From contig JAKAKJ010000004.1 in the NCBI GenBank assembly GCA_021824575.1, forward strand, positions 1-64,000: DNA of 64,000 bases, in the 5' to 3' direction. Origin of the DNA: Chloroflexota bacterium. GTDB taxonomy: Bacteria; Chloroflexota; Anaerolineae; Anaerolineales; Villigracilaceae. The stretch's first letter is position 1. Each line of letters opens with the position of its first letter. Position numbers and translations under genes: made by a program. Under the pieces are notes generated by a model. That model had not been told where the DNA came from, did no database searches, and saw only the letters and a list, made by a program, of their open reading frames with translations. Below are positions 31,573 to 44,393 of this stretch, piece after piece.

Positions 31573-31578
31573 TATAAT
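31573..31578 (+). promoter_or_regulatory. -10 box of glmS
   Basis: TATAAT about 60 bases before the ribozyme cleavage site. No good -35 seen. Confidence 0.5.
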
Positions 31579-31599
31579 TTGTCCGCACCAGATTCTGTT

Positions 31600-31609
31600 A
31601 AGGAGGTGA
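31600..31609 (+). promoter_or_regulatory. Full-length Shine-Dalgarno-like sequence upstream of the ribozyme
   Basis: AAGGAGGTGA is a perfect complement to the 3' end of 16S rRNA. No long frame follows; GTG 31607 opens 20 codons and TTG 31619 opens five. It may drive a leader peptide that reads into the ribozyme, or be a ribosome standby site. Confidence 0.4.
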
Positions 31610-31634
31610 CCCGACAACTTGATCCGGGAAAGAT

Positions 31635-31835
31635 AGCGCATGAACCCCGCTCATCGCGGGGTTGACGAGGATGAGGGTTCTCCATCGCAGGATGGAGGTA
31701 ATCAACCACTTGGTTGAAAAAATCGAAAGTTCAGCGGAAGCCCTCCGGTTGCGCCACAACCGATTTCTTTCCCTCCAGTAATCAATTCTGCGGAAAATGC
31801 CGCACGGGCAATCGTGCGGACAAAACCGCAGAAAT
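31635..31835 (+). promoter_or_regulatory. glmS ribozyme (glucosamine-6-phosphate-activated self-cleaving riboswitch)
   Basis: Matches the glmS ribozyme core in order: cleavage site ATA/GCGC (between 31635 and 31636), P2 stem GAACCCCGC/GCGGGGTT, the invariant GTTGACGAGG (31661-31670), ATCGAAAGTTCAGCGG, the P3 partner CCCTCC, a P4 hairpin CGGTTG-CAACCG, and a final long hairpin pair (TTCTGCGG ... CCGCAGAA, inner CCGCACG/CGTGCGG). Two extra hairpins (CTCCATC/GATGGAG and ATCAACC/GGTTGA) extend P3. In known cases GlcN6P acts as cofactor, the RNA cuts itself and the mRNA is degraded, lowering GlmS. It lies directly before glmS. Confidence 0.93.
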
Positions 31836-31927
31836 GGCAAAAGGCCGATATTCGATAATCGTAGCGTCGTACACCGAATTATCGAACATCGAATCTCGAA
31901 TCTCGAATTCAAATCTGGAGGATCCCC

Positions 31928-43123: not shown

Positions 43124-43236
43124 CACAAAAATATCCGGGCAGGAGACCGGCGGCACCCAGAAACACTTCCTTACCGTTGCTATCTTTCGATCCTGGCGGG
43201 GTTCGAAAGGTTCTGCCGCGCCGGGCCTGCCCGGAC
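43124..43236 (-). ncRNA. ffs: Signal recognition particle RNA (small, 4.5S type)
   Basis: About 113 bases. The SRP54-binding domain IV is clear on the minus strand: GCCAGG-ATC-GAAA-GAT-AGCAACGG, i.e. the conserved CAGG/AGCA asymmetric core around a capped stem whose usual GGAA loop is GAAA here. Outer stems pair CCGGGCAGG (43234-43226) with CCTGCCCGG (43143-43135) and CGGCA with TGCCG. A T-run follows at 43130-43127. A near-consensus promoter lies at the right distance upstream. It pairs functionally with FtsY (21248-22156). The Alu domain is absent, as in Gram-negative-type SRP RNA. Confidence 0.88.
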
Positions 43237-43914: not shown

Positions 43915-44004
43915 AGAAGTTTCCTTCTGATAAGGGCACCCGCAACAACGCCAGCGCTGTCAACATGAGATGTGGTTTGTGAGAGTATGGTTTTCATGTT
44001 GTTT

Positions 44005-44087
44005 TCGGCGGCCTGGCAATCATGGTCACTTTCGTGACGTTAGACCCATTGGCTTTGCGTCCCCGGCTTTCACCGGGTTTGCCCTTA
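44005..44087 (-). promoter_or_regulatory. GEMM-type (cyclic di-GMP class) riboswitch aptamer, proximal copy
   Basis: Minus strand matches the GEMM consensus in order: GGGCAAACC, a CCGG-tGAAAg-CCGG hairpin, GGACGCAAAGCC, GGGTCTAA, a GTCAC-GAAA-GTGAC hairpin, then ATGATTGCCAGGCCGCC. It lies about 90 bases before the sortase-like gene. GEMM aptamers sense cyclic di-GMP, or cyclic AMP-GMP in a subclass; which one cannot be settled by eye. Confidence 0.9.
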
Positions 44088-44107
44088 TCGAACAAATGAA
44101 GATTGTG

Positions 44108-44140
44108 AAAAAAAGCGAGCCTGAGTATTTGCAGGCTCGC
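44108..44140 (-). terminator. Intrinsic terminator between the two aptamers
   Basis: GCGAGCCTG and CAGGCTCGC arms, 8-base loop, then seven T on the minus strand. It is placed as the expression platform of the distal aptamer. Confidence 0.9.
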
Positions 44141-44171
44141 CGCGACAAAAACAATCATTGAATTTTTTACT

Positions 44172-44253
44172 TCGGCGGCCTGGCGATCATGGTCACTTTC
44201 GTGACGTTAGACCCATTGGCTTTGCGTCCCCGGCTTTCACCGGATTTGCCTTT
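44172..44253 (-). promoter_or_regulatory. GEMM-type riboswitch aptamer, distal copy
   Basis: Nearly identical to the proximal copy over about 80 bases; only a few positions differ (GATCGCC for GATTGCC, CAAATCC for CAAACCC). It is the first element of the leader and is followed by the terminator at 44140-44108. Confidence 0.9.
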
Positions 44254-44393
44254 TTCGGATATTTTCTTTTAACAGTATTTTATGCTGTTTCTTTTCCTTT
44301 GGTATCTACGTTTTCGTTATTTGATGATTTCAGATTTGTAATTGGATTTAGTTGCTCTGGTCATGCCGTGTCGGCTTTGAGCGGACGCGCCGC
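44254..44393 (-). promoter_or_regulatory. Promoter region of the riboswitch-sortase unit
   Basis: AT-rich, with TAAAAT at 44282-44277 as a candidate -10 placing the start about 17 bases before the distal aptamer. The -35 is poor. No gene here. Confidence 0.35.

Follow-up and report, generated by a model that had tools for sequence, protein, structure and literature searches.

The leader of glmS in an Anaerolineae genome of the Chloroflexota raises the question of what self-cleavage of its RNA would do to the gene that follows. The glmS ribozyme is the model of a ribozyme that is also a riboswitch, and its textbook output is the decay of the mRNA alone. A leader of this type was analysed within a 64,000-nucleotide stretch of contig JAKAKJ010000004.1 (the window), and among the papers searched none joined glmS, ribozyme and Anaerolineae.

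Identity, host range and gene context

The RNA is a member of the glmS ribozyme class and a lineage-specific structural variant of it. An earlier note on this DNA had recognised a glmS ribozyme directly before glmS and named a covariance search with RF00234 as the check, the search matches positions 31624-31843 with 49.3 bits (gathering cutoff 37, E 2e-8), the only RF00234 match that it gave in the 3.6-Mb genome. The downstream gene is indeed glmS (TIGR01135, 771.6 bits against a cutoff of 418), with its nearest named relatives in Chloroflexi MAGs (87, 83 and 81% identity) and an Anaerolinea MAG (74%). The same note had stressed a host outside the Firmicutes, which is true but ordinary for the lineage. 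RF00234 has matches in 183 of the 396 class genomes, in 115 of 150 of the family (E<=0.1) and in 90 of the 301 drawn from the phylum, therefore the host range is unsurprising. The helix P0, the pairing of J3/4 with the glmS Shine-Dalgarno (SD) and the genomic paralogue described below are additions to what that note had observed.

Upstream of the ribozyme the TATAAT box was left unflagged by a consensus promoter scan that also requires a -35 element. It is followed by AAGGAGGTG, which is almost perfectly complementary to the 3' end of the 16S rRNA and stands about 35 nt upstream of the cleavage site, with no evident start codon. Of 129 relatives, 85 have GGAGG between -75 and -13, usually at -39 to -32, and in some of these a very short ORF is present. 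A leader peptide read from AAGGAGGTG was considered and rejected, as start codon and frame are inconsistent across relatives when compared by eye. Elsewhere in the window, on the reverse strand, are two tandem c-di-GMP-I-type riboswitches (44003-44260, 75.8 and 67.2 bits) and a bacterial small SRP RNA (43134-43232, 66.5 bits).

Table 1. Positions of the features of the glmS leader within the window.
Feature	Positions	Strand	Basis
-10 promoter-like box TATAAT	31573-31578	+	sequence; TATAAT also before many relatives' leaders
AAGGAGGTG, strong SD-like element, no evident gene	31600-31608	+	sequence; GGAGG in relatives
P0 5' strand GGGAAAGA, ending 2 nt before A-1	31626-31633	+	flank:J3/4 covariation
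Predicted cleavage site A(-1)/G1	31635-31636	+	RF00234 alignment
P2.2 5' strand GCGCATG	31636-31642	+	sequence and RF00234
P1 hairpin	31643-31663	+	sequence and RF00234
GACGAGG, including active-site G (31667) and P2.1 5' strand (31666-31668)	31664-31670	+	sequence; numbering of PMC11602151
P2 5' strand, partner 31741-31745	31673-31677	+	covariation
H1, extra hairpin in joint J2/2.1	31680-31697	+	7/7 pairs with two-sided changes
H2, extra hairpin in joint J2/2.1	31702-31717	+	7/7 pairs with two-sided changes
ATCGAAAGTTCAGCGG, P2.1 3' strand and P2.2 3' strand	31722-31737	+	sequence and RF00234
P3, CGGTTG/CAACCG, loop CGCCA	31746-31762	+	sequence
P0 3' strand TCTTTCCC, in J3/4	31766-31773	+	flank:J3/4 covariation
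Anti-SD strand CCTCCAG in J3/4, 2-nt overlap with P0	31772-31778	+	complementarity and covariation
P4 domain, purine internal loop (ACAAAA), GCAA tetraloop (31808-31811)	31786-31833	+	sequence and RF00234
glmS Shine-Dalgarno CTGGAGG, complement of 31772-31778	31915-31921	+	complementarity and covariation
glmS, 613 aa	31928-33769	+	TIGR01135, 771.6 bits

The catalytic core and two extra hairpins

The core elements are complete and in the correct order, at the coordinates that the earlier note had given, and the RF00234 alignment predicts cleavage at the same A31635/G31636 step. In the B. subtilis numbering used in PMC11602151, P2.2 is formed by C2-G66, G3-C65 and C4-G64 (C31637-G31736, G31638-C31735 and C31639-G31734). 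The fourth pair is replaced, with A5 facing A63, or with A5 bulged if U6 pairs with A63, a bulge shift similar in kind to one that PMC7125110 proposes on the basis of mutants. P2.1 (CGA/UCG), which includes the active-site G, is present between 31666-31668 and 31723-31725, and the P3.1 pseudoknot joins GCCA of the P3 loop (31753-31756) to TGGC at 31835-31838.

P3 itself is an ordinary hairpin of 6 bp that is wrongly stretched in the Rfam alignment, and the extended P3 arm that had been suggested is rejected, the insertion being in J2/2.1 instead. The two additional hairpins that the earlier note had described do exist and covary, what has to be moved is their place. H1 and H2 lie in a joint of the catalytic core, between the P2 5' strand and the P2.1 3' strand. 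Among 40 relatives two-sided changes occur at all 14 pairs of the two hairpins, and with P2 included 94.7% of cells are paired, compared with 68.2% in shuffled and 39-53% in slid controls; RNAalifold recovers the same helices. An insert of at least 30 nt in J2/2.1 is carried by 117 of the 129 class members and a short form of 10-12 nt by the other 12, with an insert in 1 of 19 members of other classes. The joints around H2 (A1 columns 30-33 and 57-61) are near-fixed as CTAA ... GAAAA in the insert-bearing relatives, hinting at a defined tertiary motif beside P2.1.

A helix between the 5' flank and J3/4

Within the window the flank just 5' of the cleavage site can form 8 bp with J3/4 (GGGAAAGA/TCTTTCCC). 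This long-range helix, P0, appears lineage-specific, is newly inferred here and is well supported by comparison of relatives. Across 129 Anaerolineae the pairing score of each flank with its own J3/4 is 19.0, against 16.3 when flanks and J3/4 are combined crosswise (sd 0.19), and a control window shifted upstream by 30 nt had no preference for its own J3/4 (12.7 against 13.0). The signal is clearest in the 42 sequences without TTTCCC (18.1 against 13.9, sd 0.42). The permutation z-values of these comparisons ignore phylogeny. The safer test takes a single representative from each of 18 families; in it the scores were 21.3 and 15.9 (sd 0.71), and none of 20,000 permutations was as high (p<5e-5). 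Two control windows in the 18 family representatives gave no such excess (p 0.81 and 0.43).

P0 takes the form of 58 distinct helices, for example AGGACAAT/ATTGTCCT, AGGGCAAA/TTTGCCCT, GGAGAAGCA/TGCTTCTCC and CCATGACG/CGTCATGG. As many as five pair types occur at one position, and the 5' strand ends at -3 or -4 in 99 of 121. Preference for the own partner was not found in 19 sequences of other Chloroflexota classes, nor was flank:J3/4 pairing in 31 loci of Bacillota (p=0.44). Chance complementarity of flank and J3/4 is ruled out by the control windows, the cross-pairings, the other classes and the Bacillota.

Pairing of J3/4 with the glmS Shine-Dalgarno

The 3' part of the same joint is complementary to the SD of glmS. 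GGAGG and CCTCC are nearly fixed, thus the flanking positions alone are informative. Over 91 leaders the first flanking position has A-T 49, G-C 9 and T-A 6 times with A-C 16 times, the second A-T 28 and G-C 27 times with A-C 10 and G-T 8 times, and at the third pairing was not found. When independent evolution was simulated on the glmS tree the excess of pairs had p<0.0005 at the first position and p=0.001 at the second, with no excess at the third. The phylogenetic simulation supports a conserved and covarying anti-SD:SD pairing, as would be expected of an SD-occluding switch, and this long-range helix, like P0 newly recognised, is well supported. An A-C mismatch stands beside the SD core in 16 of the 91 relatives, which counts against the switch proposed below. 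In Bacillota (31 loci) J3/4:SD pairing was not found (p=0.44). The upstream GGAGG was also considered as the covarying partner of CCTCC and rejected, since its 5' neighbour is mostly A regardless of J3/4 (by eye).

It is apparent that the two helices draw on the same nucleotides, with the P0 and anti-SD strands overlapping in 99 of the 100 sequences where both helices are present; the overlap is 2-3 nt in 81 of these.

A proposed cleavage-triggered switch

We lean, with some caution, towards a GlcN6P-dependent self-cleaving ribozyme in negative feedback on glmS, in which J3/4 is the switch strand and cleavage would hide the SD, in addition to decay of the mRNA. Before cleavage the 5' half of J3/4 would be held in P0 by the nucleotides just upstream of the cut, which would occupy part of the anti-SD; the P0 strands are transcribed before the SD, thus the order of transcription probably favours P0 first. 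GlcN6P would trigger the cut at A31635/G31636, after which P0 would be the sole hold on the 5' piece. That piece would then be free to leave, so the freed J3/4 could pair with the SD and block translation. Against this, P0 might keep the 5' piece in place, so that it comes off slowly. The direction would match feedback, with high GlcN6P leading to cleavage and a closed SD. In parallel the 5'-OH mRNA may be degraded by RNase J as in Bacillus; an RNase J is encoded in the genome (605 bits), therefore decay of this type is also likely. Comparison of relatives shows the fold of the ribozyme, H1 and H2, P0, the J3/4:SD helix and the overlap of the two strands; from this layout we infer cleavage here, the exchange of strands and its direction, and how the output would be shared between decay and SD occlusion.

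The computed strengths of the two helices are similar (P0 -10.7, SD:J3/4 -11.2 kcal/mol). In a folding model without pseudoknots, Mg2+, GlcN6P or co-transcriptional order, removal of the 5' piece raises the median SD:J3/4 pairing of TTTCCC-type relatives from 0.35 to 0.92, with a rise of more than 0.1 in 56% and a fall of more than 0.1 in 5%. Shuffling the P0 strand alone raised mean SD pairing from 0.46 to 0.57, compared with 0.73 for cleaved RNA, so the effect is partial. For the window's own sequence the pairing goes from 0.82 uncleaved to 1.0 without the 5' piece; its SD is already 82% paired with J3/4, thus the predicted change is small here.

An SD that is mostly paired even when uncleaved would also suit an ordinary glmS ribozyme, in which the decay of the 5'-OH mRNA is the only output, P0, H1 and H2 are peripheral stems with a part in folding or in keeping the scissile strand in place, and the J3/4:SD helix sets a constant level of translation. 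Such a ribozyme is a possibility that we treat with some doubt. It accords with the intact core, with the encoded RNase J and with H1 and H2 as covarying structural stems that have no evident switch partner, but a structure that stays the same gives no reason for the P0 and anti-SD strands to overlap in 99 of 100 sequences, or for paralogues to repeat the layout with a terminator-like strand replacing the SD. It seems improbable that P0 keeps the 5' product after cleavage, for protection or re-positioning, and so serves retention or religation instead of switching; its 8 bp at -10.7 kcal/mol and its end just 2-3 nt from the cut would fit such a role, which leaves both the covarying J3/4:SD helix and the overlap unexplained. 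A degenerate ribozyme without catalysis, suggested by A5 opposite A63 where C-G is usual in the family, is most improbable, as every other core position is kept, the U6-A63 shift is a rearrangement of the type already proposed and GCGCAUG...CAGCGG is widespread among glmS-linked relatives.

If the cleavage-triggered switch is true it would explain how feedback is possible without dependence on a single nuclease. A covarying P0 beside the scissile phosphate is also a natural test of the effect of the 5' flank on catalysis.

A GCGG-type paralogue

The ribozyme of the glmS leader is not the only RNA of this kind in its genome. In some relatives RF00234 matches stand before genes other than glmS and have AGCGGCTG at the site, and a second glmS-like RNA with AGCGGCTG at the cleavage side is found in the genome of the window (G000:C79:11831-11950; locus L346, from 1501, + strand), about 100 nt downstream of a 6S RNA and followed by an AraC/Ada-like ORF. 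The RF00234 search of the genome did not find this locus; a pattern search did. Among 152 family genomes the pattern search gave GCGG-type RNAs in 23, one of them the genome of the window, and the sequences listed for the class, when read, give seven places that are real by structure and others that look like chance matches. The pattern fixed AGCGGCTG and TCAGCGG, therefore their conservation is partly by construction. When site classes were tallied with the GCGC anchor left out, mis-anchored sites made the result noisy. At a separate locus (L218, G034:C134) an RF00234-type RNA has the usual GCGC site and the next long ORF is FAD-linked oxidase-like, not glmS.

The ORFs downstream of 28 GCGG-type loci are glnA-like in 10 and AraC/Ada-like in 18 (one of the latter assigned by eye). 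Of 25 loci that were scanned, 17 have a 6S RNA immediately upstream, and only six pass the RF00234 cutoff. Beside the 6S RNA there is thus a paralogue mostly below the Rfam cutoff with a base change in its cleavage-side helix, C4 to G4, for which a bulged G4 would make room (C5-G64, U6-A63). P0 is retained (for example GGAGAA/TTCTCC and AAGATT/AATCTT), and in most of these RNAs (L341-L347, L361-L381) the partner of CCCTTCC in J3/4 is a downstream GGAAGGG with a T-rich tract after it; the flanks of the two match as well, for example CCCTTCCGAA/TTCGGAAGGG and CCCTTCCAAA/TTTGGAAGGG. On sequence, the switch strand appears to be the same one, facing a terminator instead of the SD.

A broader proposal, plausible and more tentative, is that the Anaerolineae glmS ribozyme is a cleavage-triggered riboswitch built as a modular platform, in which the freed J3/4 would seal one of two targets, the SD of glmS or a terminator stem, the latter in the paralogue that has 6S RNA upstream and glnA- or AraC/Ada-like genes after it. 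In that paralogue the rate or the ligand may have changed, or cleavage may have been lost. In a separate family (f38; L255, L257, L277 and L279) J3/4, for example GCCCCTTCA, is complementary by eye to a downstream element, TGAAGGGGC, and this pairing is possibly another platform.

Comparison with known systems

The ribozyme in the window shares with the RF00234 ribozymes of B. subtilis, T. tengcongensis and B. anthracis the elements GCGC, P1, ACGAG, P2, TCGA, GCGG, P3/P3.1 and P4 with its purine loop and GNRA tetraloop, as well as the position before glmS and the predicted A/G cleavage site. It differs from them in H1 and H2 within J2/2.1 and in a long J3/4 complementary to the SD. The RF00234 consensus has an unpaired 5' flank, which with a short J3/4 characterises the Firmicutes type, whereas in the window the flank is in P0. 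Both P0 and the J3/4:SD pairing are absent from the Bacillota copies (31 loci).

Additional core stems were reportedly described by McCown, Roth and Breaker in 2011 in glmS ribozyme variants of Deinococcus-Thermus. The Deinococcota copies examined here also have stems in J2/2.1, like the ribozyme in the window. Their P0 would be at most 3-6 bp (by eye, five copies) compared with 8 bp in the window, and P0 was rejected for them.

A further close system is within the genome itself: L346 has the same P1, H1, H2, P2.1/P2.2 motifs, P0 and J3/4 switch strand. It differs in the C4 to G4 change, the lack of a downstream glmS, the 6S RNA upstream and the partner of J3/4, which is GGAAGGG with a T-rich tract.

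We know of no natural SD/anti-SD system in which the competing helix contains a self-cleaved 5' product. Translational riboswitches of this type have an anti-SD strand that is shared by two mutually exclusive helices, as is proposed for the leader in the window, whereas its competing helix would include the 5' fragment that a self-cleaving RNA leaves. If so, the strand that is cleaved off would be half of the switch, and a ribozyme would be joined with conventional riboswitch logic.
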